From NCBI GenBank assembly GCA_902728285.1, contig CACVBU010001154.1, forward strand, positions 1,664,257 to 1,728,256: 64,000 bases of DNA. Direction: 5' to 3'. The notes below the pieces were generated by a model that searched no databases, was not told where the DNA came from, and saw nothing but the letters and a program-made list of their open reading frames with translations. The stretch is from Clytia hemisphaerica (lineage: Eukaryota; Cnidaria; Hydrozoa; Leptothecata; Clytiidae). The first letter of the stretch is position 1, and every line of letters starts with the position of its first letter. Below, one piece after another: positions 5,867-51,224 of this stretch. The position numbers and the translations under genes are program-made.

Positions 5867-8800
5867 ATGGCCACTCTTGAACAGAAGTTGAGAAGTCTTA
5901 CAGCTCGACCAATCGATCCGTCAAAATGCATTCCTTCGACATCTGTATATCAGCAAATCAAAGATTCAGTCGACAACCAAAAGAAAGTGATTAACAACCA
6001 AAATAAACAATTCAACCTTGGGAATGGGCAAACATTCCAAGATCCATTCCTAGCTGCAGAGTATCTATTGGAGAGAGAGTATGGAGAGACCTTTCTTTTC
6101 AAACCAAAGAACCACGAACCAATATTCATACCCTCAGAGTTTCTGTGCAGCCAGTATTTCAGAAAAAGGTCAACTGCAGATCTTGAATCTAACATCGAGG
6201 ATCTAATGAAACAGACACTCCAGAATCTCAAAAGGGATGTTCCAGATGATTGGTTTACCAAAGATTTGGACTCATTTCTTCAAACCCAAACACCAGACTC
6301 TGCCGATATCAATCAAACAGATTACGAAAAGTGGATCTTCAATGTAAAAGTTATGTATCTTGTGACTCAAGAACACAAAACTGACAAGTTGAATTTACCT
6401 TCAACTACATCTGGAAGTTTCATTCAAGAGTGTGCCAAAGAATTGACCAATATTGTACCAAACTCTCGTATTTTGAAAATCATGGGTGCAAACAAAAGGA
6501 AGGCGAAAGTTGATAAACAAATTGAAAATCTACCGCCACAAGACCCAAGACTCAGTTGGTTTTTCAATTTGAAGCTGAACAAGCGTGGGGAGAAAACTGA
6601 GCGGTCTCTCTTCGAGAAAATTCTTTCACTTAGAAATGATAAGGTACTCGAAGATATTGTAGTTTTATCGTCAGTCAATTTTATGACAGATGTCGGTAAT
6701 AAGACGCACCAAGAGTTCGATTTCCTTATCTTTTCATGGACACGCAAGCTTGTTATTGGCATTGAAGTGAAGAGAAGTTTAACAGTAACAAGCACAGCAT
6801 TCAATCAACTTGACAAGTATCATTCGGTGCTTGATCAACAACTCGGTGATCAACTCGGGTCAGGTTGGACTTTTTATCCTGCTATATGTGTGGAAAAAAA
6901 CACCTTTAACTTTTCAAATCACCATTACATCGACCTAAGCACGAATACAAAATCCTGGCTTTCAGACATCTTGAATAAACACCCAATACATCAGCACCAG
7001 ATCTCTTCCCCAGTTCCTTTGGATCAATTCAAGAAAGTCCTTCAAATGATCGTCTTCTCAATTCACATGTCCACTAAAGACCAGCTAAGACCAATCACTA
7101 CATCATACTTATTCGAGTATACTAAAAGTGCAATCGATAGCCTCTCTAATCCACACAACATAGTTTTCTACTCAAAACAGCAACTCCCAGTCATTAAAAG
7201 CGAAGATTCTTGTTTCAAAAAGGTCATATTTATGGCTGGTTTTGGAACAGGCAAAACATTCTTGTTGGAAGAAAAATCCATCATTTTAAGCAAATTGGAC
7301 AAATACAAAGGGCGCATCATGTATGTTATATGTAACAGAGAAAGCTTATTGTACCACGACCGAAGGGCGGAACTCGGAAAAAAAGGAGTCACTGTGATTA
7401 CAGGAAAATCTGCTATTGTAAGTGTTTTTTCTGCTTTATTCGAAATCGAAGAAGTTGTTAAAGGGGCCATACACGTTTCTTTTTAATAAGAACATCCAAA
7501 ATTTTGAAGCCTTCGGATGTTCTTAACTTTTTGGGTTTTAAGCCTAAAATTGTTCTTAACATATTCTTATTTTCTTCATTTTTGTGAATATTTTTGTCCA
7601 TTTTCCTAAAAAATCGGATCTTTTTTAGTCCTCATTGCTTTAAAATGCTCTTAACATGTTCTTAACATTTTGGCCATCGAAGCCTTATGTTCTTATATAG
7701 TTTGTTCTTATAAAAAAACGTGTACTTTTGAGACAGACTTTAGGTTCACACCCTGAAAAATAGTAAATCGATTCTTTATAGCAATTCAAGGCTAGAATTT
7801 CTAAATCTTATCTTTATCTATAATATAAATCAGGTTTACAAACCATTTTCGGGCTTTTGGGCTTCTTTTAAAGCTGAAATTTAAAAAGAATTTAAGAACC
7901 ACATTGGTCATACTTTGCTTTATTTAATTTTTATAAAAAACATTTTATGTTACGAAATTTTGACAGAGGAAAGAAAGTCGATCGATTTGAAAAAGTGTAA
8001 ACTTTATTTTGTGGCAATGTAAAATCGAGCTTTTCTAAAGTTTTTCAGAAAAAATATAATGCAATTTTCCTTTTTTCAGACAGGGAAAAACACCATACAT
8101 TTACGAGATTTTTCGTTCATTTCTTTGAGCATTATCTAGTCTAAAAGTAGAAAAATTAACAGATTAGTCAAATAAATCAAGAAAATCAAAAATAACATAC
8201 TAGAAATTCACTATGCCCTCTTCCACAAAAACATCACTTAAACAAGTACAAAGGTACAGATTTTTCTGTACGTTAATAATGTCAGGTCTTTCCTTTGACT
8301 GTTTGACAAATAAACAAAACATTTGGAAATGAAAGAACTGTAATCCACCATTTTTTGATGACGCGAAAGGGGTGTCAAGCCACTTTTGTAAAAATCAATT
8401 CCCGTAATGTGACCTTTTCTTAATTTGTTTAGCGTAAAAATCAATTCTCACAAAATTTATTTCTGTGAAGACGCTATTAAAAAAGGTATTATGAAGGACG
8501 AAGGTCATTGTGCATTTTAAAACGTGAGCTTTGAAATTATTTTTTTTCGTTTTTCAGGATAGCTTAGAGAATCCATGGATAAGGCAGCACTTCCAAGCCA
8601 TTTTCTTTGATGAATGGAATGAAGAAGTTCAAAAGAAGATTGACGTGAAATTATTGAAGGCTTTCGATGTGTGTTGGATTGCACCGAACTCGTCTTACCG
8701 TGCAAAATCGAAAGAATTCAGTCCGATCAAGAATCATTTTGAGAAATTTGAAGTCATCCAGTTAGCTACTAATCTGAGGAATACAAAAGAAATAGTGAAG

Positions 8801-9709
8801 GCAACGAAAAATAAAGCTGAAACTCAACTGTATCTATATGCACAAGGTCTTGTAGAACCTCCGGCTAATTTTCCTATCGGAAATCGTCCTTTGTTTGTTT
8901 CATCTTTGACAGAGGCTATAATTGATGCACGCAAATTAACAAAAGAAGGAATTCTTGTTATAGCAAACAAAGTTGATTTTGCAGTCCTACCTAACGAACA
9001 AATTAAATTCTACCATTCATTGCGAAACGATTTTGATGATGAGGACAACCCGTGCGACACTCTACGCCAAGGAAAAGTTTTAGTTGTTTCACCAAATTAT
9101 GTATCAGGCTTTGAATGGCCATTGGTCATCCACAAAGGAGATGAAATGGAGGGATCAACAATGGATCTCGAACACAATGGATCAAAAACAATAGATCTCG
9201 AACAGCATGAATGCAACATTGCAATGCGGTGTACAACGCAACTTTATATCGTTGGACTAAACTCCAATTCAACTGAAACTTTCCCGTATGTTGAAATTAC
9301 CAGTATGCTTCAGTCTTTCATTGGAGATAATCCATTATTATGCCAGTTTAAGATTTTAACAAGTAATTATATCATTGAGCATATGGAACATTTTGATCGA
9401 CGGACCATTCTGACAAAAATTTTACATATTCTTAAAGTGACTCTTAAAAATCTTTCACAATGTAACAAACAAACTTTTTCTGTTGAAGCAACTTCAAATA
9501 CCTTGCATCAGTTCTTTAATTTTCTCATCAGTAATTTAACGGAAGAGCAACTATCAAACGATAATAATGAAAACACTTTGATTGGTTCGCTGGTCAAAAA
9601 ATTCACTGAAAGAAACATTTCTTTTTGCAACAGTTATGATCAGTTTCTTGAAATGCTAAAACAAAATCTTAATTTCCAATTTTTGAAAGAAATTTATTCA
9701 AACTGTTAG
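5867..9709 (+). CDS. PD-(D/E)XK nuclease-like / UvrD-type SF1 helicase fusion
   Basis: Two exons: 5867-7417 and 8558-9709. The intron starts GTAAGT and ends TTTTTCAG, and the join is in phase 0, giving about 900 residues to a TAG. Residues ~280-302 read EFDFLIF...GIEVKRS, the D...ExK core of NERD-like PD-(D/E)XK nucleases (Asp285, Glu300, Lys302). Residues 458-466 are a Walker A (GFGTGKTFL, Lys463). Exon 2 supplies a Walker B (AIFFDEW, Asp535-Glu536), an LRNT element, a motif-V-like SPNYVSGFEWPLVI (~692-705) and a motif-VI-like IAMRCTTQLYIV. The order matches UvrD/Rep-type SF1 helicases. Expected role: ATP-driven nucleic-acid remodelling or cleavage; substrate and pathway unknown. The uninterrupted ORF runs on to 7486 only by reading into the intron and its MITE. 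The start was chosen as the first ATG of the long frame. The TAG may be premature (see 9710-10589). Confidence 0.82.
7470..7725. repeat. MITE of the 'ACACGTTT...AAACGTGT' family in the intron
   Basis: Terminal inverted repeats TACACGTTTCTTTTTAATAAGAACA and, at the other end, TGTTCTTATAAAAAAACGTGTA. The interior matches the copies at 3102, 16054 and 44713. It starts about 50 bases past the splice donor of the nuclease-helicase gene, so the last residues of the apparent open frame (HVSF) are MITE sequence. Confidence 0.85.
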
Positions 9710-10589
9710 TTTGGGATGTTAGATGAATTCAGTCGTCTAAAGCAATTATTGCGGTATATTGAAGTCATAAACCTCATCTACTGAAAATCATTTTTCACAA
9801 ATATTTGAGCCATATGTTTTGCAATACATACCTACAGTACATAGATTACCTTCTATATTTCGGTGAATTAAAAACCGATTGGCTGATTGATCTTGCACTT
9901 GTGCTGCAAATGTCAGGTACATTTTGTCAACTTTTCATGAATTCTTTTGGTGAATTTGTCATTCAGGATCTCGTTAAGAGACAGAAACCTGATGATAGTT
10001 GGCTATGTGAACGTTCCGTAAAGCGATCCATCGATGCCTTAATTTGCAGATAAATATATGCAGTATATGCACTATAATGCAGAGACGTTTCACGAACCTT
10101 TTGGAGTTTTGTACGGATTTTGATATTCGCAAGCTATCAAGTATATTAAAGCAGGAATCTCTTGAGTTTGAAACTTACTTTTGGATAAATTTTCGGTGTA
10201 ATCAACTATCGCCAATGCTTTTACCGGAACTCGATAGATTACAGTTCTTAACTATGGACACTGCTTTCGCAAAAATGTTTAAAATGTGCGTAGGAATTTA
10301 TTTCAGAGATCATTGTAACCAATTCTCCAGCACAAACTCCGAATGGCTGGAAAAAGTTCGGGATATTTTGCGAAACAACATTTATATAAATACAGATACC
10401 TCTTCTAATGCTAATATTAAATCGAAACGAGAAACATTTCCGCCGTTAAAAGACTCTCTACACTTCATCATATCAGACATTTTAGAAAGACATGAAAAAA
10501 AGTTAATGACGCCAGAGCTGATTATGAACGATATTGTTAATACTCATGTAATTGATGTTGGCAATAAGCAGTTTCTAGAATTCTGTTGA
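9710..10589 (+). pseudogene. Frame-broken 3' continuation of the nuclease-helicase gene
   Basis: After the TAG at 9707-9709 the same frame stays open for 24 more codons (to about 9784). Coding-like sequence then moves to a second frame (up to about 10053) and a third (about 10044-10589). The pieces look protein-coding: long, leucine- and phenylalanine-rich helical stretches such as LVLQMSGTFCQLF and IRKLSSILKQESLEFETYF. The gaps are too short (under 100 bases) and lack clear GT-AG pairs, so introns do not explain them. Most likely a once continuous C-terminal region with at least one nonsense change and two frameshifts. Alternatives are genuine short exons or sequencing errors. No domain recognised. 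Confidence 0.55.
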
Positions 10590-19581: not shown

Positions 19582-19592
19582 CTTTATTTTGG

Positions 19593-22016
19593 GCATACCG
19601 GATAAGTGGGATGGGGGAACCCGGGAACCTAAAGTGGGAACCTAAATGAACACCTGAAAAGTGGGATGGGGGAACCTAAGTGGGAACCTAAATGAACACC
19701 GGAAAAGTGGGATGGGGGAACCTAAGTGGGAACCTAAATGAACACCGGAAAAGTGGGATGGGGGAACCTATGGGAACCTAAATGAACACTGAAAAGTGGG
19801 ATGGGGAACCTAAGTGGGAACCTAAATGAACACCTGAAAAGTGGGATGGGGGAACCTAAGTGGGAACCTAAATGAACACCGGAAAAGTGGGATGGGGGGA
19901 ACCTAAGTGGGAACCTAAATGAACACCTGAAAAGTGGGATGGGGGAACCTAAGTGGGAACCTAAATGAACACCGGAAAAGTGGGATGGGGGAACCTAAAG
20001 TGGGAACCTAAATTTTTATTTTTATTATTTTTTTTTTTATTATTATTATTTTTTTTTATAGCAATATATTTCGCAGGTCTATTGACCTCTATGAAACAGA
20101 ACTTTTGATTTTACATTTTATAAAGTTTTTTCTCCCTTTCTTTTATCAAACGCTCTTTGAAGACTTGTAAGGATGGTGCTTCAACAATATCTTCTTCTAG
20201 ATCATTCCAAGGTTTCACACTTCTGTGAAAAAGAGAGTTGCTTTGGTAGCCTCTCATACCGTCATTAGCAAAGTTCCTTTGAAGCTCGTAATCATGCTGA
20301 CGTCGTGGTCGTCTTCGAGGAGTCAATTTCTCTGATCTTATAGACTAGTCATAAATGTGGAGGTTCTTGAAAACTTCCACCATATCACCAACTTGCCGCC
20401 TGGTCTTTAGGCTAGGTAGATTGATGAGTCGTAGCCGATCTTCGTATGAGTAGTTTCTATAGCAACTAACTAGCCTTGTAGCTCTTCGTTGGACGCCCTC
20501 AATTGCTTTGATATGTTTGATTAGCCTTGGAGACCATACTACATGTGCATATTCCAAATGGGGTCTGACAAATGCAATGAAAAGCGCTCGAAACATATCT
20601 GGTGAGAGAAATTCGAAGCTCCTGCTAATCAAGCCAACGATAGAGTTAGCTTTCTTGATTTTACTGAATATATGGACTTCAAAGGTCAGGTCACTATCGA
20701 TTATCACTCCTAGATCTTTTTCTTGGTCAACATGTTCTAGAACAGATCCTGCTATGGTATAGGGATGGACATATTTGATGTTCCAAAATTTACCCAGTGT
20801 TAAAACATGACACTTGTTCGGATGAAATTCTAAAAGCCAGTCCTTTGACCAAATTTTAAACCCTTAGAGTGACTTATTCTCATTTTGCTCATTTCCACCC
20901 TTACAGTGTACTTTGGGAAGCTTGGAAAAAAGGGCCGCACGTACGGTAGGTCGTTTACCTTGAGTGCCCCCCCCCCGTGGATCTATGCCTATGTGTGTTG
21001 AAACGTGGCAAGCCGTGCAATATGTTCTATTTTACTATCAAACATTTTTAATTAATGAAGTGTATTCACACGCTGTACTGTTTGGTTGGTACAGAAAGAA
21101 AAACGAGCTAGAATCTGTTAAATGCTAAGCGACCCCAGCCCTGACCCGAAAATTGGAGCTGCTAATAAAAAACAATGTGTATTGCATCAAGAGTGAACAA
21201 AACTAGATCGTAAATAATGTTTTACTAGATTCTGTATTCAAGCAAATTAGATCCGTGCAAAAGAAAGAAGAGGCTCTAAGTTATCCATCGAGCTATGAAC
21301 GAACTTCTAATTCCTTCTAGATTTGAAGATATGACGGTTTAAAGTTTAAAGTTTAAAGTCAATTAAGTTAATTTACTAAAAAGAACCTTTCAAAAAGATG
21401 CACTATAAAACTGCTGATAAATAAACATGCTTTTTTGAGCTAATTGAATAAACAAATTCCCTTTGTTTTATTTTCAACATTATTGTTTGCGAACCGTAAT
21501 GTAAAAAGTAAATAACTGGTGTTCTTATTATGATAAAAGGTTTTTTCTTTCATTGCATATAATATCTTTCTTATCTTTATGTATTTTGTTTTTAAACAAA
21601 ATATTTCAATTCTATTAATAATTAAACAACTTAGGTTCCCACTTAGGTTCCCCCATCCCACTTTTCAGGTGTTCATTTAGGTTCCCACTTTAGGTTCCCC
21701 CATCCCACTTTTCCGGTGTTCATTTAGGTTCCCACTTAGGTTTCCCCCATCCCCATTTTTCAGGTGTTTCATTTAGGTTCCCACTTAGGTTTCCCCATCC
21801 CACTTTTCAGGTTGTTCAGGACATTTAGGTTTCCCACTTAGGTTCCCCCATCCCACTTTTCAGGTGTTCATTTAGGTTCCCACTTAGGTTCCCCCATCCC
21901 ACTTTTCAGGTGTTCATTTAGGTTCCCACTTAGGTTCCCCCATCCCACTTTTCAGGTGTTCATTTAGGTTCCCACTTTAGGTTCCCAGGTTCCCCCATCC
22001 CACTTATCCGGTATGC
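19593..22016. mobile_element. Foldback element with ~46-bp minisatellite arms, carrying a LINE 3' end
   Basis: The left arm (19593-20010) starts GCATACCGGATAAGTGGG and repeats GTGGGATGGGGGAACCTAAG / TGGGAACCTAAATGAACACC about nine times. The right arm (~21632-22016) is the same array inverted, ending CCCACTTATCCGGTATGC. CTTTATTTTGG flanks both ends (19582-19592 and 22017-22027). The ~1.6-kb core holds a 5'-truncated LINE in minus orientation plus ~750 bases without ORFs. The architecture is the same as the 13483-14620 element but the sequence is different. Confidence 0.88.
20011..20870 (-). pseudogene. 5'-truncated jockey/CR1-like LINE, RT C-terminal part
   Basis: Reading from ~20868 down, the minus strand shows the typical thumb/C-terminal region of a non-LTR reverse transcriptase: WLLEFHPNKCHVLTLG, then DLGVIIDSDLTF, PHLEYAHVVWSP, GVQRRATRLV, TRRQVGDMVEVFK, then SLFHRSVKPWNDLEE. 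One in-frame TAG (about 20345-20347) interrupts it and coding resumes in the same frame down to ~20111. The T-rich run at 20011-20062 is the A-rich 3' tail seen in antisense. The catalytic FADD region and the endonuclease are absent, so this is a dead copy. It begins right at the end of the foldback arm. Confidence 0.88.
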
Positions 22017-22101
22017 CTTTATTTTGGATCAGTGGAATGAGAAAAGCGTCCAGCGACCAAAGCGCTCACCGACCATAAAATACTGAGTGGGCCTTTACTG
22101 T

Positions 22102-22233
22102 TATAAGTTAGGAACTTACAGAAAGTTTCATGCCAAAACCTCTTTTTAGGAGCTATTAACAATAGTTTCACCCCGAACAGAAACTGCCCAACTGCCACCC
22201 CAACCCCCCCCCCCCCAGTACAAATAGGGTTAA
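22102..22233. repeat. Right half of the 'AACCC...GGGTT' repeat family
   Basis: Matches the right end of the complete copy at 62465-63025: AAGTTAGGAA-TTACAGAAA, GAGCTATTA-CAATAGTTT, CCGAACAGAAA and AATAGGGTTAAG. A run of C residues interrupts it. Confidence 0.65.
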
Positions 22234-22760
22234 GATCTGGAAATGGAAAATTTAGTAGTACGATCAGGTAATCAGTGGTTTGTCATATTTTTAACGGGGT
22301 TTGAAGCTGTTCCACTTTTCAGCAGGATTTTTAAGTTAAGCTCGGATGATTTTGACCGGGTCACTGGTATCACACACATATTTTATAATGTTATAAAATT
22401 ACTATCTAAAAATTAATTTTGTTTCATGGGTCACGACTTTAACATACACAATGCTATCAAAACCAAGCATCGCACAAATCTATGAAAAAGCTTAAACCTC
22501 TGATTTAACCACGCATGCATTTATATAAGTTTCATGATCTATACTGCAACTCCTATTCAAATTCTAACCCGCACATTTTTTTCTTGATCTATTTATTATC
22601 TACATTTGAATGATAATGCACACGACACGAAAGATGGAAAAAAAGAATAAAAACTCCAGTATATTGTATGTATTTAGATCAAAAAATCTTTTTAATTTTG
22701 GCGAACCAGGAATTTTTTTAATTTTGGCGAGAGCTTGATTTGGCGAACGACCTAAAGTTC

Positions 22761-22977
22761 CCTTAAAGGGACATAACAGTACTTGCGAAATTTGTCAGCG
22801 GATACAAAATTAAAACAAATGTCACATGTCAAAATAAAACATCAAACCAAATATGGCTAATTTTGATTGTTCAATTGTTTTACAAGTTTGTTTTGGACAC
22901 GTGATTTTAATTGTTCTCTTTAATGACACGTGGTTCGCGCAATATTTACATTTTACTACTTTTATGTCCCTTTAAGG
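22761..22977. repeat. MITE 'CCTTAAAGGGACATAA'
   Basis: Left end CCTTAAAGGGACATAACAGTA, right end TTTTATGTCCCTTTAAGG. The 217-base interior has no ORF. Confidence 0.75.
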
Positions 22978-23166
22978 TAGTTTGATCTTATAGAAAAAAA
23001 CGTGTATCAATCAGCAGCTTTCCCAGGTTTGCGCAGTGCTAGCGGGTGGTAACCAAGTATAAATCTATGGTCATCGGTGCCAATTATATATATCTAATTT
23101 TTATCAATTATTAGGCGGCTGTAAGCCCATCATATCGAATTCATCATCATCATCATCCTTCGACCG

Positions 23167-24258
23167 TTAGGTCGGAAATACCGAGTATCTCTCTCTCCAC
23201 AGCTCACGGTCTGACATAACTGTTTTCAGTTCTTCTAACTCGAGCCCTGTTTCCCGCCTCAAATTGTCGAGGAAAGTTCGCTTCCTTGAGCGTCTAGGAC
23301 CAGCAGGGCACCACAATAAGATATCTGAAACGACCTCAGATTTCGCTCTGAAACAATGGCCGGAGAAAGTTAGCCTCCTGGAAAAAAGAACAGAAGAGAT
23401 TCTAGGGAGACCTTGGTAGATTTGGGCGAGGTTGGGATGATTTCTCCAATCAAGATTTTGAACCCTTTTTAGGAGATTGGTATAACACCCATCAAGACTT
23501 TTCTCCATAGATTTTGTCATGGTCCAGGTTTCAGAACCATAAAGAAGAATGGGCTCCACAAGACACTTGAAAATTTTAAGCTTGAGGTTATTGTCTAGAT
23601 CACATTGCCAGATTTTGTTGAGCTTATTACAAGCTTTCCACGCAAGTGCTTTCCTGGTTTTAAAGTCGCTATCAGAACTGTTGATAAGAGAGCCTAAGTA
23701 GTTGAAATCGATCACTTTTTTAATGTCAACACCTTTCAAAGAAAATAAAGGGAGAAAGTTTTCAGAGGAGCAAAGATATTCTGTTTTTTTCTCGTTACAG
23801 TAAAGACCGACCTGACTTGCTGCAGTTTCTAAAGAATGGAGTAGAATTTCGAGATTTTGAATACTTTCTGCAACAAGTGCGAGGTCATCAGCAAAATCAA
23901 GATCAGTCACAAACAAGCCAGGGTCACGTGTGCCCTGGGGAGTTTTAATTTGAATTCCCTTTTTGTTAAAAGTATCAACAGAAATTCTTAAAACATAATC
24001 CAAAACAACTATAAAAAGAAAAGGAGCAATAGTGTCTCCTTGAAGAACTCCTGCTTGAATATTAAAAATATCTGTATCCCCATCAGGTGATACAACCTTT
24101 GCTTTGGAAGAAGTATACAATGCTTGAATAGCATTTATAATTTTCTCAGGGATACCATAGAGACCTAGAATTTGAAACATTTTTTCTCGACTGATCGAGT
24201 CGAAGGCCTTTTTGAAATCAACAAAACATATAAAAGCATCTTTATTGAGTTTCCTCAT
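23167..24258 (-). CDS. Retrotransposon RT palm and C-terminus (continuation)
   Basis: 363 residues from the first Met; the coding frame actually opens about 60 bases earlier with the KGRST segment expected after NQNGF. RT motifs: FVDFKKAFDSI, AGVLQGDTIAPFLF and the catalytic FADD (122-125), then GLYCNEKKTEYL and FNYLGSLI. The C-terminal part has WRNHPNLAQIYQGLP, RRLTFSGHCFR and DRELWRERY, as in RTE-type elements. It overlaps the upstream ORF by four bases; this is a frameshift junction rather than a second gene. All key RT residues seen are kept, so the copy is young. Confidence 0.9.
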   Translation of the reverse strand: MRKLNKDAFICFVDFKKAFDSISREKMFQILGLYGIPEKIINAIQALYTSSKAKVVSPDGDTDIFNIQAGVLQGDTIAPFLFIVVLDYVLRISVDTFNKKGIQIKTPQGTRDPGLFVTDLDFADDLALVAESIQNLEILLHSLETAASQVGLYCNEKKTEYLCSSENFLPLFSLKGVDIKKVIDFNYLGSLINSSDSDFKTRKALAWKACNKLNKIWQCDLDNNLKLKIFKCLVEPILLYGSETWTMTKSMEKSLDGCYTNLLKRVQNLDWRNHPNLAQIYQGLPRISSVLFSRRLTFSGHCFRAKSEVVSDILLWCPAGPRRSRKRTFLDNLRRETGLELEELKTVMSDRELWRERYSVFPT

Positions 24259-26213
24259 TTCTTCAAGAATTCGTCTGATAGATAAAATTTGAGAGAGTGT
24301 GCTCCTGCCCTTCCGGAAAAACCGTTTTGGTTTCTCCTAAGGAGGGGGTCAAGAATAGGAACAATACGGTTAAATAAAAGTTTGTTATAAATTTTTGCGG
24401 CAATTGGCATCAAGGTGATACCTCTATAGTTTGAGGCTAAGGTCAGATCACCTTTTTTGGGAACTGGAATGATACCCCCTGTTAACCATGCAGAAGGTGG
24501 CACAAAATCGTTAAATGTATGGTTACAAAACTCTAGAAGGAGGTCAAGAAAAATAGGGTCTTTCCATAAAACTGTGGGTATATTGTCTAGACCGGAAGAT
24601 TTATTGATAGAAAATGATTTTAAAGCTATTTTAAGTTCATCTTTAGTAAAAGACTCTGTTGAAATGTGTAAGAGATCAAAAACTTGGTTCAGAGGAAGTT
24701 GGTCAGGTCCGAGAAGTGGGGGATTTCCAAGCAGTGTCTTGAAATGAGCAAGCCAATTCTCTTTTCTTTTCTCTGGAGATCCTCCTTTGAGCTGGATCGA
24801 TGGATGATCCTTGCGCCCTGACAGTTCATTGATTGTCTTCCAAGCAGCTGAGTGTTGATTGGAAAAATGAAGATGTGAAATAGAGTCAATTTTACCTTGA
24901 ATAAAAGATGCTTCAGCTGTTAAATAAGCTTCATCTAAATATTTTTGGGCGTCAGCAAGGCGTTTTGAGGTTCTTCTGGTTGCGCGAGATAGGTGCCTTG
25001 CTTTGACTTTATCGTATTCATTGCGTGCTGCGATGACAAGATCATTTTCAGACAGATGTGTTCTTTTGGTTTTAACTTTTTTGGGCAAAAGAGAGAGACA
25101 GACATGTTCATTTGCGTCTACCAAAGTTTGGTATTTCTCTTCAATATTGTGATCGGGACGAGAGAGGAGGTCAAATCTATTTTTCACTTCAACCGCATAA
25201 ATAGAGCGAAGATTAGAACTTGTATAAACTTGTTGCCAATCAATAGATTTCAGAGGGTTGGGTTTGCACTTTTTAGAAGATCTCAAACTTAGACAAATGT
25301 GTGCAGAAACGACTCTGTGGTCTGAGCCAACAGAAGAAAAAGAAAAATATGATTGAGCATTTCTGACACTATTTTTCCATTTATTCCGGACAAGGACATA
25401 GTCTATTTGGGATTTAGTTCCAGAGGGATGTTGGAAAGTCCAGAGCTTATTAGTATTTTTCATAAAAAGTGTATTAGTAGCAACAAGCTGATGTTGTAAC
25501 ATAAAATCAAAGAGTTTATTACCATTTCTATTTGTCGATTTATGGTATGAAAATTTTACATTATCATTCCCTAACTGGGCATTAAAGTCGCCAGCTAATA
25601 TAAGAAAGTTATGCGCAGGAATAGAAAGGATAGTTTGAGAAAGAATGGAATAGAAACTATCGACATCAACCTGTTCAGAGACATTAGTTGGACTGTAACA
25701 AGCTACAAAGGTTGTTTTAGGGTTGCTATTAAATTCGGCAACAATAATTCGATTTGAAATTTTACGGAGAGATAAAAGATTTTCTGCTGCTCTAGAAGAG
25801 AGAAGCATACCAATACCCCCGATTGTTGTTCCCTGGGAATTTTTCCATGCTGAGGCGGTTACAAGCTTGTTTTTACCAAGATTTGAGTGGAGGAATTCAA
25901 TGTCTTTGTGTAGAAATCTATGCTCCTGAATACTGAGCACATCGATTTGGAATTTAGAAAAACACGAAAGAAGCTCTTGTTTTCTACTAACAAGAGATAG
26001 AGAGCGCACGTTGAAAGTGCTAAAAATGGCTGGATGTTTGCAAACTAGTAGTCTTTGTGTTTTAGGTTTTGTTACAGACTCAATCCTATCACCGTCAACT
26101 CTCTCTGGTGAGTTTGGAGAAGACGGTTCATTGGTTTCGCGGGAAACAAGGTTTAAGTTTGAAACTGAGAAAGCAGGGGCTTTAACCCTGGTGCTGTTTA
26201 AAGAGTTATTCAT
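24255..26213 (-). CDS. Retrotransposon endonuclease and N-terminal RT (frameshifted)
   Basis: 652 residues. An apurinic-type (EEP) endonuclease is visible: FNVRSL (67-72), IQEHR (95-99), GDFNAQLG (208-215), SQIDYV (268-273) and GSDHRVV (296-302), carrying the family's catalytic Asp, Asn and His. From about residue 515 the RT fingers follow: SSGLDNIP, GGIIPVPKKGD, NYRGITLMP and NQNGF. After NQNGF the frame is lost: the run of five T (five A on the plus strand) shifts it and the last ~20 residues are out of frame. RT motifs 3-7 continue in the next frame down to 23167. It would nick target DNA and start reverse transcription, but this copy cannot make an intact enzyme from one frame. Confidence 0.9.
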   Translation of the reverse strand: MNNSLNSTRVKAPAFSVSNLNLVSRETNEPSSPNSPERVDGDRIESVTKPKTQRLLVCKHPAIFSTFNVRSLSLVSRKQELLSCFSKFQIDVLSIQEHRFLHKDIEFLHSNLGKNKLVTASAWKNSQGTTIGGIGMLLSSRAAENLLSLRKISNRIIVAEFNSNPKTTFVACYSPTNVSEQVDVDSFYSILSQTILSIPAHNFLILAGDFNAQLGNDNVKFSYHKSTNRNGNKLFDFMLQHQLVATNTLFMKNTNKLWTFQHPSGTKSQIDYVLVRNKWKNSVRNAQSYFSFSSVGSDHRVVSAHICLSLRSSKKCKPNPLKSIDWQQVYTSSNLRSIYAVEVKNRFDLLSRPDHNIEEKYQTLVDANEHVCLSLLPKKVKTKRTHLSENDLVIAARNEYDKVKARHLSRATRRTSKRLADAQKYLDEAYLTAEASFIQGKIDSISHLHFSNQHSAAWKTINELSGRKDHPSIQLKGGSPEKRKENWLAHFKTLLGNPPLLGPDQLPLNQVFDLLHISTESFTKDELKIALKSFSINKSSGLDNIPTVLWKDPIFLDLLLEFCNHTFNDFVPPSAWLTGGIIPVPKKGDLTLASNYRGITLMPIAAKIYNKLLFNRIVPILDPLLRRNQNGFSGRAGAHSLKFYLSDEFLKK

Positions 26214-26850
26214 GGTATTTCTTTCGATAGCTAAATGTTTCTAATGCTCCGCGCCACTGGATACATCATAGGGAGAATGACAGTAAATACTGTCTAAAGA
26301 GGTCAACCACCCCATGAGGCAAAAATAAAACACTGCAAGAAGCCAACCTATGCAGAGTGTGCAGTACCCAACTAACTTGGGCAAAATCCCTTTAGCCTGG
26401 AGGCCAAACGGACAGATAGGAGAACCATACTAACGGTTTCTTGTTAAATGCTTCTACCACTATTCACTTTACCTGCAACAAAGTGAGATTTATTGGTTTT
26501 CTCCAGGTTTTACAGTAATCCTTCTGTTTTGTGGAACGAAATTTAATGTTAAAACTTGATAAAATACAGTATTTGCGTGATAAAAAGTGAATTCGCAGTT
26601 ATATAGTTAAAAAATAAGTTTGTATGTACAGGTTGAAAAATACGGTTACTATTCACAGTCAAAAGTCTTAGTCAAATGAATCTGACTGAACTTTTGAAGA
26701 TTGGCTCTGCAGGGCAAGGGCGCCAGACTTCCAGAAGGAAGTCATCCTTGGGGAAGACTTAAGTAGTCTACCCGCATACCCATAAATATATCGAATTGAG
26801 AAACTGAAGAAAAACAAGCAAGGAACTAGAAGATAAATCAAGACACGAAA

Positions 26851-35800: not shown

Positions 35801-38800
35801 TTTGAAGGTCTTCGGCCGCTAGCGTAGGTCTTCGTCCGTTGACGGAAAAAAATCTGCGTCGGCGGGAAGGAGTGAAAGTTAATTAGCACCCTCTCACCAA
35901 CTTCCGCTCGTTCTCCTACGCAGCTTCTATTTCAACAATCACCCAGCCGCACGCGCTCGTGTTTTTGCTCTCTGAATGAATAATTAACAGACTAGTTTAC
36001 TATTTTGGCCATAACTCACGGATGGGGTTAGTACTCTTGATGACAGATGAGGATAACCCCTAGATTTGAAATAAATAAGCTCAGCCAGATATCAATTTAT
36101 ATTTTCGAAAAAATTAGACCCTACTAGAAAAAAAGAACCTGAAAGATAATATTGGTATGTGATAAATTTAGTAGATTTTGATTAAATTTTGCGACAAACT
36201 CAGACACTGAAAAGAGGGATCCTAACAAAAGGGGCATATCCCATACCCATCTTCGCCTTAGTGAATCCACAACTCGGCCAAATCCTCAGAACTAAATTAT
36301 TATTAATGGGATTTTCCAGAAAGAAATTGAATATGGGGGTGGAGGATATAACCCTTATTGGAGATTTACCCACGGATATTGTGACTTTTGACCCCCGGAC
36401 AGCAGGTCTAGCCCCCTGGACAAGCATCAGTTGACCCCATGAACATTCAAAAGTTTCCCTCAAATTGAGCAAAATTAGCCCCAAACAGAGCAAGTTTACC
36501 CCCCCCCCCCGGACAAGGCAAATTTTGTAGATTTTTCACTACCCCCGGCCCCCGGGCACTATATCCTCCACCTCCCCCCCCCATGAACGGACATTTTCTG
36601 GAAGAACCCAATGACATATTTTAAAATTAAGAAATGGGATTCTTCAATGGTCTATCATATTGGAGTCTTGACATCAATTTTTTCAACATCCATTCGTTTT
36701 AGGAAAAGAAAATAAAGTTTGGGAAATGATAGGTCCACAAGGTCCAGGATGGAAAGTAGCTGAAGTAGACATCCCTGAAAAACCTGATAATTACAATGAA
36801 AGGAATTCTTATATCTTTCTTGACTACAAGGTATATTCTTTTAAGGTCTTTATCTAATTTTATGTCCTTTATGTCCTATTTTCGCGATTTTTTTAATTTT
36901 GATTGCGTACAAAAGTCGCTGAGCACAAAGCAGACAGAGATTAAGTACACAAACATTTTTGCGTTCTTGGTAAGACCCGACCAATTGAACCGCCGACCTT
37001 TTAAATCATATGTTGAACGGTGAAAAAGAATGCTGCTATTATATACATGTTTCGGACTCGGTCCGCTCTCAAGGGAATGAAGATAGATATCCTATAGATT
37101 ACAGTCACTATAATTACCTTCCATTAGTTCCATTTATACTTAGACGGAAAAATCGTCTGAGACGAGAAGTTTATAAAATGTGATCTGTGGAGGATATCCT
37201 ATTTATTGAAACAAGTACACTCCTCCATAATGCTCATTTTCTAAATTGCTCGTCTCAGACAAATTAATCGTTTCAGTATAAATAGAACCATTCTCTTTAA
37301 AGATACGTTTCGAAGCAGAGCGTGGACACAGTTTTCAAGGAGACATTGCATTGGATGATATTTTTATTGTTAACTCGCTATGTTCCAAGAAAAAAACACT
37401 TGTTCCGATACTGAGCACCACCCCAACGACCACCACTACTACAACAACGACCACCACTACTACAGCAACGACCACCCCAACTACAGCAACGACCACCCCA
37501 ACTACAACAACGACCACTCCAACTACAACAACGACCACTCCAACGACTACAACGACCACCCCAACAACTACCACGTCCACCCCAACCACTACTACCGGTA
37601 TGTCTGATACTCTTTAGAAGGCTAATACTTAAGAAATGAAATCTAATCTAATCTAAAAGGGAAGGCTAATCGCCAGAAGTGGATGAAATTTCGCTATAAT
37701 GTTGTTGAGAGAATAATCGAGTCTCTTTGCCAAAGGTTTCCGGCTTAGACAAGCACTTCAGGACTCAGGGAAAATGTTGTCTCGGAAAAACTTGTCTCCT
37801 TTTCACAGTTATATCACTCTATTCCGATCTCTGATAACATACCAATGTTACTTATTATCGGAGAACAATGTGGTTACTAAGCAAAGGTTCCAGCTTAGAA
37901 TTATGTACTCAGGAAGAATTCCGCCTCGGAAAAACTTGTCATCTTTTCAAAGTCACTTTCTTCCTTCCGACATCCGATAAGATATAAAGCATATAATAAG
38001 TATAAGCTATGCCTGGATGCTTTGAGAACTTAAGCATACACGAGCCTATGACCAAGGGGCATACACTTGCTTATAGAAAAACATGTAAGATACTAATGTT
38101 ACGTATGTTTTTCTCTTTAATTCCACATACAGATCCCTTGTTCGCCGAGTGTGGTATTCGCATTAAAGCCATTGGGTGTTTTACCGACTCTCCAGCCAAC
38201 CCGGCACTGTCAAAGATGATTGAAAGTTTTCGACCAAATAGTGTTCATAATCACAATAAGAATACAATCGATTGGAAGAATTATGAGACAACACTTAACA
38301 CGTGAGTAAACATGAATGTCAATCTAGTGCCCAGAGCCAGTCGAACCAGTTTTTGTTTGATGTGATACATAGAGATGATACAACCGCTATCAGAATCATG
38401 AAAGTCAAATCTTTTTTGCAACCTGCGTATCATCAGCTTTTTTAATGCTTACATTTTATTTCTTGTGCTTACTCTGGCGAAACGTGGTAAATAAAGCCTG
38501 AAATACACGGGGACGAGGTTGACCTCTTTGATGATTCTGACATCGCTCACGAAAAGATTCATTGCATGAAGTCCATCATCAGAATCTTAAAGTGCTGCAA
38601 CTATCGCTGGGAACAAGGTTGTGAAATAGTTTTTATTTGTTCACCCCACATGTTTGTTTAGGCGAAATAAAGGCAACAATAGCTTAGGTACTAACAAAAA
38701 AACCGTTAGTTTTTAACACAGTTTTTGATATGAAATTATGTTTTATTCTTTAGCCTGCTATGTTCCTGTTTAAAACGTACAAAAATTCAAGGAATGAAAT

Positions 38801-41513: not shown

Positions 41514-41876
41514 TTATTTTTTAAAGAACGATAATTTAGAAATTTGTTTTTTGTAAAAGCTTTTCAACTCATTGTTGCGGATAGTAAACAAGAAAGCGTT
41601 AACACCAGTATTTGCTAGAACTAGAAAATAAAGCATTCCTGAAAGCCGGATAACGGAACCTCCGATCGGGGGATCGTAATTAGCTTCTTTGAAAATAACA
41701 TTGTGAATGACGGTTAGGATAGTTAAATGGATATTACTGATCATATATGCGACGGTGATGTATATTAAAGTTTTCACGGCACGTTTTTTATTTTCCTGGC
41801 TCTTATCCGTTGCCTTGTTTTTTGAAATGTCTTTGTTATTTTCATTGCTAGTTCTTTTTGCGAAGCGAATGTACAT
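41514..41876 (-). pseudogene. Rhodopsin-like receptor fragment, TM6-TM7 only
   Basis: 120 residues. After a basic loop (KSQENKKRAVKTLIYIT) come TM6 (TLIYITVAYMISNIHLTIL) and TM7 (LYFLVLANTGVNAFLFTIRN, where NTGVNAFLF replaces the usual NPxxY), ending KSFYKK. The KSQEN-RAVKTLIYIT and FY-LAN-GVNA blocks match the intact receptor at 53178-54080. TM1-TM5 are missing. The open frame stops making receptor sense near 41862, exactly where the 333-bp tandem duplication starts. It could be the second half of the TM1-TM5 locus at 49318-50209 (same strand, right order) or a separate broken paralogue. Confidence 0.75.
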
Positions 41877-42527
41877 GAGCGAAGCAGTTTTGCTATCGTG
41901 TGTGCGTACCTTTAACTATCCATTCCTTTCAACTCTCTATAGGCAGGAGATGGGAAAAACGTTTCGAATCTCCGAGTTGCGCGATACCAAAATATAAAGG
42001 AGATAAAATACAAAGGATATTCAGGGAAATGGTAACTCAAATTACCTCCGTCATATCAAATTTGACGTATACGTCAGAATGATACGAAGAACGAGTAAAC
42101 CCTCCGTAACCCGTGACGCCAATATTTAGGAGGTAACAAACACGAAGAACATCCCGGGAAATGATAAAACAAATTACCTCCGTTATAGTAATTTGAAGCG
42201 AATGTACATGAGCGAAGCAGTTTTGCTATCGTGTGTGCGTACCTTTAACTATCCATTCCTTTCAACTCTCTATAGGCAGGAGATGGGAAAAACGTTTCGA
42301 ATCTCCGAGTTGCGCGATACCAAAATATAAAGGAGATAAAATACAAAGGATATTCAGGGAAATGGTAACTCAAATTACCTCCGTCATATCAAATTTGACG
42401 TATACGTCAGAATGATACGAAGAACGAGTAAACCCTCCGTAACCCGTGACGCCAATATTTAGGAGGTAACAAACACGAAGAACATCCCGGGAAATGATAA
42501 AACAAATTACCTCCGTTATAGTAATTT
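41862..42527. repeat. Exact tandem duplication, 2 x 333 bp
   Basis: Copies 41862-42194 and 42195-42527, both starting GAAGCGAATGTACATGAGCG and ending GTTATAGTAATTT. The identical 60-residue open frames at 41900 and 42233 show that the copies did not diverge over that stretch. No domain recognised. A palindromic TTTGACGTATACGTCA is inside each unit. Either a very recent duplication or an assembly artefact. Confidence 0.9.
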
Positions 42528-42781: not shown

Positions 42782-45700
42782 TTCTTTAATTTGAAGCCAG
42801 TAATTTTCAATATATTCACGCAAATTGTTATATTTGTCTTCTTCCCAAAATTCACTACTTCTCAATGATATTAAGGCTTCATTCATTTCCTCTATTGTTT
42901 TCGATCTAGCAATTCTTCGTAATCGGGGTAGGATGTCGTCCTTTCTCCCGCTGCATCCATTTTTTGTTGCCTTAAGCCATCGTCCCCAAGCCTGTTCGCG
43001 ATGAAAGTCACAAATCAGCACCTCGCAACCTAAAAATACAAGAATGAATTTAAAGACACGTTTTTTAAGTGCAGAAGGAGTAGGTGAATGAGATAAAGAA
43101 TGATAGTACGAGTTTTTCACAATCTAACGAAATTTTATTTATTACTTTTCTATTTTATTTACAGATCTTTTTAAAAAAGAGAAAGAAATTTACCTGGAAA
43201 CACACATTCTAAAGAATTGATCTCCTCCTTGCAATAATCAGTCATTGCGAACAGCGGTTTCAAGGACGGATTCCATGATTTAACTACCTTTAAAGCTTCT
43301 AAAATGGATTCGAAGGATTCATTTTCAGTCACAAATGTTGCAACAATTTGATAATCAAGATTCGTTGGAACAACCAGAAAGAATAACGGTATTGCATATC
43401 TTGTCGTTTTATGTGTAGCATCAAGAAGGAGAATTTCATCCCCATATCGTTGCAGCAGATCTCTTTGCCACTTTTCCTGGTGCACAAACAAAAATGACTG
43501 GCATTTACCATCACCTGTGTCCTCCTTTGGTCGATAAAACGTGTTTAAAGACGGATTAGCCTTCTTCCACTCGTCAATCTTCTGTTGTAAGCACTCTTGA
43601 TCGATCATGGAATACCTTAAAAGTGAGAAAAATGCAAGTGGATAGAATGTGTTTATATTTTCAATGATAAATTTCAATGAAAAATTTGAATGGTTAGAGG
43701 TTAATACAAATATTGGAATGCTAAACCTTTTTTTAAGAATATTTAAAAAATGTTACCGCAAATAACTCTCGGAAATATATCAAACCATACCAGATGCAGG
43801 CTTATTTTCTAATTTATTAATACAAGTATATTTTGAATAATTAGAATTAGTTTTTGTAAACTATTATCTCGTACTTAAGATATCTTATTCATTCACCTTA
43901 ACTTTTGTTTTGATTTATCCATTTTTGAACGTATGATAGGGATGGAAGGATAAAAACGTCTGCTGTTTGATGGTGGCAAGTTTTCTTTCCCAAACATATC
44001 AGCCACAACTAGTTTGATCAGCCTTTTCATTTCCCGCACACTTGTTATACCCTCTTTTACGAACATGTCGATTTTGGATGAAATTTCTGGGTCCATACTT
44101 TGAGATATGTTTTGTGTCTATAATGAAAAATTGAATTACAACAGTGTAGTTCATTTCTTTTTCAATGTTCTTTTAGAGATTTCAGAAGTCTAAGTCTCAA
44201 GTTGATTAAATATATACCTTTCCCATCGGATGATACTTATGACAACCAACGTCATCAATAGACAATAAAATCCTTCGTTCGTAATTCGCAAGACTCTTAT
44301 CTGCCAGCTTCTCCTTAAGAGTCTTGGAAGAATTTCGTTTGAATGTTTCTAATTTAATCGATGGTGGTGATTTTGCCTAAGAATAGTTTAATTTTTAAAA
44401 CAAGTTAAGAGCGCTCCTTTGAATAACTACTAAACTACTCGGACGATTTGACAAAAAGACCCTGAAAACTGAGTTTTCTAAGTTAAAAATTTCGCTTCTG
44501 TAGAGGCAAGGGTATCATCCAGATTTAACAGAGTAATTAAACCAAATTTTTTACCTTGTTGTACTCTGGAAATTGAACAATTTCTTGCATTGTAACCTTT
44601 GCTGGGCAATCGAACTTCTTTGTATCTTGTACAATTAGATAACTTTTCCCTTTGTAATGATCTGAATTCTGTAAAAAGAAATTAAACTTAAAAAAAATGA
44701 ACCAGCAGCACCTACACGTTTTTTTATAAGAACATCCAAAATTTTTGAAGCCTTGGGATTTTCTTAACATGTTCTCCTTTTCGCCATTTTTTGAGTATTT
44801 TTGTCAATTTTCCTGTGAAATTCGGTGTTCTAGAGTCCTCAAAGCCTTAAAACGTTCTTAACTTGTTCTTAACATTTTGACCATCGAAGCCTTATGTTCT
44901 TATATTGTCTGTTTTTATAAAAAACATGTACCCAGGGAACACAACCTTGTTGTGTTATACATAAATTATTGAACGTTAAGGGCAATTAAAATTCTCACTG
45001 TTGACAAACGCTCTTTCTTTTTTTCTTTGTATGTTTGTTTGTGTTTGACGTTTCTATCTGGTCCGTGGTGGCAATCCATGCTCTTAGACGACAAGATTAC
45101 GAATGGTTTTCCATTGTTTGAAATCCCTTCAGCCTCCCAGTACACTTTGTGATTCTTAGCAAAGAGATCTATTACATGACAAAAGAATTTTTTTAATGAA
45201 ATTTTACAACTTAAAAAAAGTTGTAGATAAAATGCTGAAAATACACACTTTTTTCATAAAAAAAAAATTATAAGAAAAATGAGCGAATCTCGCTCAAATG
45301 TTTAGAAAATTCTTGAGGCTTCAATCAACTCAAAATTATTTTTCCAATAACAATTTTTCCCTTCAAAAAAAAAGAAATGTTTTTAATTTTAAAGGAAATT
45401 TTTATTTGGTTTTTATTTGAGTTCGTATCCATAAAAAATCAGGGACCTGTCAATCATAAAGAAAATCTGTCAATCATAAAGAGAATCTGTCAATCATAAA
45501 GAAAATCTGTCAATCAAATTCAAACTATTATTTCAATACTTATAAAGCTACCTGTATTGCCGAAGTTTTTAGTTGACTTGAATGATGAAAAGCGTGTGAT
45601 TGTGCGTAATTCATATTCTCTCAATCGCGTCAATGCTTCTTGGACATCTTTGCACAAATAATGTATCTTGTTGTTCACTAAATTTGGAATAAGTTTATTA

Positions 45701-48794: not shown

Positions 48795-49317
48795 CAGTCG
48801 GAACCACTACATAGAAATGGCAACTATTGCTTTAACGGGGTATCCCGAATGGGAAGGTGAAAATAACCCAAAAAGGAAACTGTTTCCAGATTGAAAATTT
48901 CATCACTTTTCTGTTTCCCATTTTGATAAAAAACTTTTCATTGTTCCCGAACGGGAAGTTGAATTTTTGTAAACAAAGCAGATTTTTGTTTCCCGATCGA
49001 GAAGAAGTTTCCAAATCCAACACATTATCACACATAATTCTTTAGGAATGGGGAAAGTAGAATTAAGAATTGATTACCCGGTGTATTTCTTAACTACTTG
49101 GTGAAAGGTATTTATTTACCCTCTTTTACAATAGGCATCAGTTATTTACCTTCCACGACCATTTCCGGAGTGCGCAGAGGTCACATTCCCGATCGGTATA
49201 CTGGTCAACTTCCTGATTCGGAAACTCTATCCATTTCGGGAAGTTTCTCACCTTCCCGTTCGGGATATATTTCCCGTTAAGGCAATAGTTGCCATTTCTA
49301 TGTAGTGGTTCCGACTG
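48795..49317. mobile_element. MITE inserted in the receptor locus, 5-bp TSD
   Basis: 523 bases with terminal repeats CAGTCGGAACCACTACATAG (left) and CTATGTAGTGGTTCCGACTG (right), continuing CCATTTCTATG / GCAACTATTGC. ACAGT flanks both sides (48790-48794 and 49318-49322). The interior repeats CCCGA-CGGGAA motifs. The end of the receptor frame at 49298 lies inside this element, so its last residues (SVGTTT) are transposon sequence. Confidence 0.85.
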
Positions 49318-50209
49318 ACAGTGTTTGTATGTCATTAAAATGTTTTGCTTGCAACTTGCGAATCGAGGAGGCTCTGGAACGCTTCGCAACTTTTATACAT
49401 ATACGGCTTGTTATGATCTTATTTCCGCAGGTAACACGGTCCCTTGCACTGTCATTGTATTTTTTATCTTTCATATCTAAGATCATGTGTTTGTTGTATT
49501 TCGCATCTTGCATTTTGATGTCAACATCAACTTTGCTAATCCTATTTTGTTCAACCGTCGTATTACTTCTGCACTCCTTATTATTATTCTTTTCGGTAAA
49601 ATTGTCCTTTGTTGTCTGCGTTCGATTTTCTTTTTCAACAAATCGGTTTGTTTTATCAACAATCTGTCGTGCTTTTAACGTTCGATACGATACAAGATTT
49701 ACAGTTATCAACAAGACAATCGAACAAGAATAAAGGGGTATCCAAAAACAAAGGCTTGCATATTTACGTAACCAAAGTACATCAAAAAAGAAGAAATTGA
49801 AACAAAAATTCATGATTCCAAAACATGAGCCGACTGCTAAAGTGATGTAGATAGGGTATGTTGGTATCCTCTTAAATGGATAGCGAACTGAGACGAATCT
49901 GAGGGCTGATATAAGCGCAAATGTTATGAAACCAAGCATATGTAATCCATGTGATAAACCAAATGTTAGCACGACTGCAAGACTTCTTTCATTCATACCA
50001 AAAAAGAACATAAGTAAAGATGATACGGCTGCAAAGAGTGTGGTTAAAATATCAATACACGACAGAAATATGAATAGTTTTTTAGATGTTGTCATCTTAT
50101 GTCCTTTGTTTGTTTCTTTAATGCCGAAAATGAGCAGTAGATTTGAAACCAAAACAAATAGCAATATTACCAGGTGGATGATGTAGGTAAGATTAAAAAG
50201 TTCAGCCAT
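49318..50209 (-). pseudogene. Rhodopsin-like receptor, TM1-TM5 and long third loop, cut off
   Basis: About 297 receptor residues from ATG 50209. TM1 (IIHLVILLFVLVSNLLLIFG), TM2 (KKLFIFLSCIDILTTLF), TM3 ending LRFVSVRYPFKR (in place of DRY), TM4 (GIMNFCFNFFFF) and TM5 (LLITVNLVSYRTLKARQ) match the intact paralogue at 53178-54080 throughout. A long polar intracellular loop rich in Asn, Lys and Arg follows. TM6 and TM7 are absent: the frame runs into the MITE at 48795-49317 and stops at 49298. With no TM6-TM7 nearby, the only candidate second half on this strand is 41514-41876, 7.4 kb away. No strong splice donor was seen before the MITE, so a broken gene is more likely than an intron. The ligand is unknown. 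Confidence 0.78.
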
Positions 50210-51224
50210 CTTTTAATTATTGTGTAACTTTGGCAACAAAAATAAGAACAAAGTTTTTATGGATTTCACCACAAAATTTATATTAAGTCCCTTCAATAAC
50301 TCTCAAATGCAAAAAAATAATTGAACTGTTATAGTATATTTTATCTCCGGATTATTTTTTCTGAAAACCTGAAATTTAAAAAGCTCCTTGCAGTGATAAT
50401 GGCAGGTGATTTCAAATTCAAAATATGTATGCTAATATTTGCCAGTCTCATTTCAACTGCGATCATAAAAAACGAGTTTTAATTGCTGTTTTATTTTGAA
50501 AATTTTTATTGTAGAAAGAACTGTTAATGATTTTTTACCTTGTTCATAATTTTTTGAACATGCAAATAGTTTACCTTGGCTCTGTACAGTACCAAGTAAC
50601 GGGAAACAATATCTACGATACACGTATTTCCTTTTAGCAGATCCATATAAAAAAGTCACGAAAAAATGTCGAGTAAAGCTCTGATTGGCTGACACATTCA
50701 AAGATTACCTCATACTCTGGGCATTTGAAAAAAAAATTCTTAAGAAATTTAATAGACCCGCCAAAATTTCTTCCCGTCAAAAAAAATTTGTAAGAAAAAT
50801 CGGACAATTGATCCATTCGTCAAGATTTCTTCTCTAAGGTACTAATGGTCTTTCGGTCAATTATTTGGAAGATAGAAGTTTTGTTGAAAGACTCCGTCGT
50901 CTTTAGTTTTTAATTTCTTATTTTAGCCAATAAATATATACAAAATACCTAAAACATATTTTCAAATGATAATAAAAATCTTCGCATTCTGACAAAAATA
51001 ACGTGCCAGAAAAAACACTGAGGAGCAAAAAGTAACCTGAAGCTGAATCTCAATGCTCTGGGCGACTATACAGTTTAGAAACCTTCAAATTGAAGATATC
51101 TGTGAAATCTCGTAAGGATTAGACTAGAAAAAAGTAGATGACCTTTTCAATTACTGACCTTTTTATAAGCATCCTCTTAAAATCTGAATGGGGAGTGAAT
51201 CCGTTGATCAAAGAGAATACCTTA

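Follow-up and report, generated by a model that had tools for sequence, protein, structure and literature searches.

A large gene family of the hydrozoan Clytia hemisphaerica that probably joins a NERD-like nuclease to a compact SF1 helicase-type motor in one chain

The window analyzed here, a stretch of 64,000 nucleotides from Clytia hemisphaerica, carries a two-exon gene on its forward strand at 5867-9709. Exon 1 (5867-7417, +) is an open frame of 517 codons that ends at a GTAAGT donor at 7418; the intron (7418-8557, +) is phase-0 and GT-AG, is placed near the same codon as in the modeled relatives, and has a pyrimidine-rich acceptor ending TTTTTCAG at 8557; exon 2 (8558-9709, +) closes with a TAG stop at 9707-9709. 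The two exons are in phase and give a protein of 900 residues. Forty random windows with matched dinucleotide content had stop-free runs of at most 203 codons, against the 517 of exon 1, and codon-position composition is biased. The exons proposed in the first-pass annotation, and its residues D285, E300 and K302, are thus borne out in coordinates, phase, intron borders and protein length. A dispersed repeat (D6) lies within the intron, at 7580-7717.

Exon 1 encodes, in codons 1-517, an N-terminal domain, a nuclease core, a Q-motif-like stretch, the Walker A motif and motif Ia; exon 2 encodes motifs II to VI of an SF1 motor followed by a partial C-terminal repeat. The N-terminal domain (residues 1-225; 5867-6541, +) is conserved in the relatives, and Pfam gives scattered weak matches only for it. 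The window protein has no match in NCBIfam.

Family members. The genome from which the window comes (417 Mb in 951 contigs) was searched with each exon. With the best 83 of 189 candidates scored, exon 1 gave at least 91 matches, of which 86 have no internal stop; with the best 107 of 140 scored, exon 2 gave at least 110, 92 of them free of stops. When merged these make at least 83 exon-1 loci and at least 29 loci with exon 2 only, that is at least 112 loci on 77 contigs; as scoring covered only the best candidates, these figures are minima and favor good copies. In 77 of the 83 exon-1 loci the same strand carries an exon-2 match no more than 8 kb downstream, and 25 of the 83 sit less than 100 kb from another exon-1 locus. 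We modeled 21 copies, namely the window copy and 20 paralogues on 19 of 20 loci fetched from the 83; copy C41:1642039 on locus L027 was left unmodeled, having no phase-0 donor in the searched range. Each modeled paralogue has an ATG within seven codons of the match start, and all 20 allow a phase-0 intron at about the same codon, although the donors chosen automatically in L020, L023, L025 and the two L026 copies depart from the consensus and could be some codons off. In a tree of the 21 exon-1 proteins the window copy groups with L014, L015 and L016 (support 100/100). For exon 2 an alignment was made from 15 of the 21 models, leaving out L014, L023, the minus-strand copy of L026, L028, L030 and L033 as disrupted, short or uncertain. 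We take the window gene to belong to a large family of host genes that has expanded in this lineage.

Nuclease-like domain. The first-pass annotation had proposed a D...ExK nuclease-like core, and this is sustained by the family. Across the modeled copies, whose exon 1 is 43-69% identical to that of the window copy, residues E245, D285, E300, K302 and Q314 are invariant (21/21) and Y318 nearly so; together they form the PD-(D/E)xK active-site set, D...(E)xK with an upstream Glu and a QxxxY (E245, D285, E300-x-K302 and Q314-x3-Y318 at 6587-6820, +). The comparison to NERD and PD-(D/E)XK families that had been suggested came out in part: paralogue L017 matches NERD (PF08378) over nearly the full profile (residues 241-340, positions 2-109 of 111, E 4.7e-4), at 21.1 bits, under the cut-off of 22.1. 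It is the sole NERD match, about 1 bit short, so that the Pfam cut-off is reached by none of the 21 members, and NERD is not among the Pfam matches of the window copy. HSDR_N_2 is matched weakly in 11 of the 21 members (E up to 0.5; best E 0.0037, 17.8 bits, not reaching the cut-off of 25; E 0.017 in the window protein), and those matches with listed positions fall on residues 272-336. Other sub-threshold Pfam matches cover the same part: YhcG_C residues 246-347 of L031, PDDEXK_4 residues 225-328 of L020, and AHJR-like residues 284-348 of L017. The PADLOC profile PDC-S01 matches residues 279-337 of the window protein (E 3e-4), and a comparison with Mrr, HsdR and RecB, for which the profiles were thin, was negative. 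Single-sequence structure models were poor (mean pLDDT 34 and 45), and structural comparison with them was headed by other folds. In these low-confidence models residues 242-342 are predicted to run through a helix, three strands (D285 on the second and E300 on the third), a long helix and a last strand, an order of the type found in PD-(D/E)xK cores. Residues of about 240-345 are therefore likely to be a PD-(D/E)xK nuclease domain, to judge by residue conservation and profile matches, and the evidence favors a NERD-like one.

Motor. In the window copy the helicase motifs follow in order: I at residues 458-464 (Walker A, GFGTGKT; 7238-7258, +), II at D535-E536, IV at 589-592, V at 701-704 and VI at R741. 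Residues G462, K463, D535, E536, R591, N592, G701 and F702 are invariant in the 21 modeled copies, and R741 is kept in 19, the exceptions (L014 and L028) having disrupted sequence there. Motif III is of the type WIAPNS, without the usual Gln, and only its W557 is invariant (21/21). The full set of UvrD-type motifs over two exons that had been read from the window alone therefore stands for I, II, IV, V and VI, and not for motif III in its usual form. A helicase profile built on 19 of the 21 copies, without L014 and L028, was compared to a profile of 71 UvrD-like sequences (a length filter kept 74 of 80 UvrD loci, 69 of these being distinct, and uvrD and rep were added). The local match had a probability of 95.9% (E 6e-9 for that single comparison) over 106 columns around motifs II-IV, and a forced global alignment spanned 320 columns at 96.8%; 30 column-shuffled controls in local mode gave at most 0.4%. 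Motifs V and VI were assigned by inspection and conservation. In a profile search of PDB sequences, PcrA chains ranked 1, 2 and 4 of 5, with weak E values (0.052, 0.29 and 0.79). Pfam yields AAA_19 in the window protein (E 0.041), UvrD-helicase in 6 of the 21 members (best E 0.005, 17.0 bits, not reaching the cut-off of 23) and Bac_DnaA on the P-loop in 8 of the 21 (best E 6.2e-4); we read the Bac_DnaA and UvrD-helicase matches on the P-loop as generic P-loop similarity. The Pfam matches of exon 2 include no UvrD model.

The likeness to the SF1A helicases UvrD, PcrA and Rep thus consists of motifs I, Ia, II, IV, V and VI, recognized by eye, and of the profile match; the family differs from them in motif III and in its compactness. 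Motifs I and II are 75 residues apart in the window copy and 188 in Escherichia coli UvrD, so domain 1B is absent, and set against the general layout of UvrD domain 2B would be absent as well. The evidence favors a compact UvrD-like SF1 motor with no room for the usual 1B and 2B insertions.

C-terminal repeats. Using an iterated HMM of 146 positions seeded from L024, we find a C-terminal repeat of about 146 residues, present one to five times, in 16 of the 21 exon-2 models. L024 has five repeats, L029 four clear ones, and L017, L018 and L022 three each; in L014 and L028 the repeats lie downstream in another frame. None was found in L030, L032 or L033, and L030 and L033 stop directly after motif VI; a short form therefore exists. 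In L024 the second and third repeats have 94.7% DNA identity, a sign that array length has changed in recent times. In the window copy the first repeat (9347-9688, +; profile positions 1-108, 77.8 bits) is cut by the stop. Beyond the stop, in a different frame from exon 2, the end of a further repeat (10080-10274, +; positions 89-146, 47.4 bits) and the start of another (10278-10556, +; positions 1-83, 64.4 bits) share an open stretch at 10011-10586, and the tails of L015 and L017 align to the second of these pieces. The stop at 9709 is probably not the ancestral end, as relatives read on into the repeat array. Judged on this arrangement, the window copy is a truncated member of the long type, which in function may be a short form or may be decaying.

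Constraint and divergence. We computed dN/dS of exon 1 for all pairs and read it for the 14 closest: it is 0.18-0.30 in the four closest pairs and 0.13-0.18 in the next ten, where dS is near or above 1. In the core of exon 2 the close pairs give 0.18, 0.51 (a pair with the broken L014) and 0.38, the fourth being not computable, and the next ten pairs give 0.11-0.27. Exon 1 is under purifying selection across the compared pairs. Compared with L015, the window copy has a dN/dS of 0.16 for exon 1 and of 0.19 for the core of exon 2; no loosening of constraint is seen in its nuclease or its motor. Among 13 long copies the mean pairwise identity is 59.4% for the linker and first motor part, 56.5% for the nuclease, 50.7% for the N-terminal domain and 43.6% for the second motor part. 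Repeat 1, at 28.5% (9 copies), is the fastest-changing part.

Other proteins combine a nuclease with an SF1 motor. Among animal proteins, Schlafen group III (SLFN11) is a single chain of nuclease and compact SF1 motor with a short distance from motif I to II, although its nuclease fold differs from the PD-(D/E)xK-type core proposed here. DNA2 is a eukaryotic single chain with a RecB-type nuclease followed by an SF1 helicase; it is an SF1B repair enzyme with an Fe-S cluster. Neither a Schlafen core nor a Dna2 model turns up when the window protein is matched to Pfam at E up to 10. With DNA2, and in bacteria Nhi, a single-gene nuclease-helicase tied to detection of phage SSB (passages of PMC12904381), the fusion as such is already known. 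Nhi-like systems carry a NERD nuclease (passages of PMC10952713); the family, with its NERD-like match in one paralogue, is like them a single-chain nuclease and SF1 helicase, judged by sequence. It differs from Nhi as an animal gene with an intron, more than 100 loci, a C-terminal repeat array and its own N-terminal domain. Pattern-based search of the prokaryotic collections gave no sequence relative of the family, and no Nhi model is among the matches to PADLOC 2.0.0, a library that may or may not contain one. Gabija (GajA-GajB) is alike in that a nuclease works with a UvrD-like helicase, which binds DNA termini and promotes the nuclease, but it consists of two proteins and its nuclease is of the TOPRIM/OLD type (passages of PMC10952713). 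In Hachiman a sensor helicase is coupled to an effector nuclease (PMC12278908). The passages available from two comparative-genomics papers on conflict systems (PMC3710099 and PMC7159879) do not describe the family. Keyword searches of the open literature did not find it either; this is weak evidence of absence, and it fits the earlier description of the enzyme as under-described.

How did the family come to be in this genome? The wnt genes, which are animal-specific, gave 39 matches in the genome of the window and none in 14 control genomes, supporting its animal origin; together with residue invariance, the UvrD profile and the NERD match this upholds the earlier reading of a nuclease core and a UvrD-type motor in a single animal chain. 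Bacterial contamination, or recent gene transfer from bacteria or viruses, would account for a layout like that of bacterial Nhi-like enzymes, but relatives on many contigs share an intron near one codon, and no relative was found in bacterial and archaeal contigs or viral contigs (pattern-based searches), in phages (tblastn with exon 1) or in plasmids (tblastn with exon 2); we regard this origin as very improbable. The spread of loci over 77 contigs and the presence of mobile elements in the window might instead mean that the gene is the cargo or enzyme of a transposable element, its copy number reflecting transposition. Of six pairs compared, however, two old ones align only in the exons and in short dispersed fragments, and young pairs end differently (L014/L015 align over approximately the whole 10 kb fetched, L022/L024 from 147 bases upstream), which argues against a transposon origin. 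No common element ends were seen in the six sampled pairs, and the window copy is not flanked by long inverted repeats. Old copies are still open and constrained and, as noted above, 25 of the 83 exon-1 loci have another less than 100 kb away, so that transposition is an improbable source of the family.

Our explanation is that these are expanded single-chain nuclease-ATPases, triggered by nucleic acid and probably defensive. Each would consist of an N-terminal domain, a NERD-like nuclease and a compact SF1 motor, to which the long subfamily adds a variable repeat array. The repeats, together with the motor, would recognize a nucleic acid that is foreign or out of place, or a nucleoprotein; the motor, by binding ATP and translocating, would relieve or aim the nuclease; and the nuclease would cut the nucleic acid that is bound or close by. 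We infer the cutting, its substrate, sensing by the repeats and the antiviral or anti-transposon purpose, and gating of the nuclease by motor and repeats is suggested by analogy. We place more confidence in the anatomy than in the explanation as a whole, which we consider evenly poised; granted the anatomy, a defense role could equally go either way. Such a role is more plausible than from the motifs alone because of the size of the family, its fast-changing repeats and the varying length of the arrays. A conserved enzymatic core that carries a fast-evolving module of variable length, spread over more than 100 loci, is typical of host-parasite recognition proteins. The family could also be housekeeping nucleic-acid enzymes (for repair, recombination, RNA turnover or programmed DNA elimination) that expanded for reasons other than defense, with repeats that bind partner proteins. 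DNA2 puts a nuclease and an SF1 motor to the service of repair. RecB does likewise (passages of PMC12904381). The purifying selection on exon 1 would suit such enzymes too. For them it would be unusual to have over 100 loci whose C-termini diverge and whose repeat number varies, and we think this reading rather unlikely, though to be taken seriously. Since the displayed Pfam nuclease scores are all sub-threshold, the protein might alternatively be a helicase-type sensor whose nuclease-like domain binds nucleic acid and has lost cleavage; binding alone would hardly require that the catalytic set stay unchanged in all 21 copies, whose exon 1 is 43-69% identical to that of the window copy, and we give this little credence.

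Bacteria have many nuclease-helicase defense enzymes, and animals are thought to rely largely on signaling sensors. A large nuclease-motor family in an animal, constrained and diversified in its repeats, would form a direct-acting equivalent of the bacterial enzymes. We tentatively raise the possibility that these are animal immune enzymes encoded in the germline and of a class not described before, with more than 100 single-chain nuclease-motor receptors whose repeat arrays choose the trigger; if true, this would be a receptor repertoire with direct destruction of nucleic acid, not signaling, as its output. For testing, the family offers defined catalytic residues and natural variants in repeat length.

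The inverted pair on L026 is near-identical in exon 1 (dN 0.066) and strongly diverged in the exon-2 core (dN 0.51), which points to gene conversion in exon 1 or to a replaced exon 2.

At one genomic locus (L026) two copies of the nuclease-helicase family lie in inverted orientation, near-identical in exon 1 and strongly diverged in exon 2, a pattern that suggests gene conversion or exon exchange. At another (L024), exon 2 encodes five C-terminal repeats, two of which share 94.7% DNA identity, and additional pieces of the repeat lie past the exon 2 stop.

Mobile-element-like sequence in the window includes LINE-type frames at 20345-26240 (-), with Pfam matches to endonuclease and reverse transcriptase at 23167-26240 (-); the third frame, 20345-20863 (-), had no Pfam match. 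A tandem repeat of ~46 bases forms two inverted arrays (19592-19770 and 21839-22017), which are opposed, 98% complementary and separated by 2 kb. Pfam also matched an open frame at 43171-43752 (-) to the ZSWIM1-3 RNaseH-like / MULE transposase domain.

Three open frames of similar appearance resemble seven-helix receptors (41514-41915, 49298-50212 and 53178-54134, all on the minus strand), and only one of the three, 41514-41915, gave a Pfam GPCR match, a weak one. One of these receptor-like frames has at its edge a direct duplication of 300 bases, 100% identical between its copies (41862-42161 and 42195-42494). There is also a short tandem repeat array at 37396-37605, whose translation, if it occurs, would be threonine-rich and possibly mucin-like.
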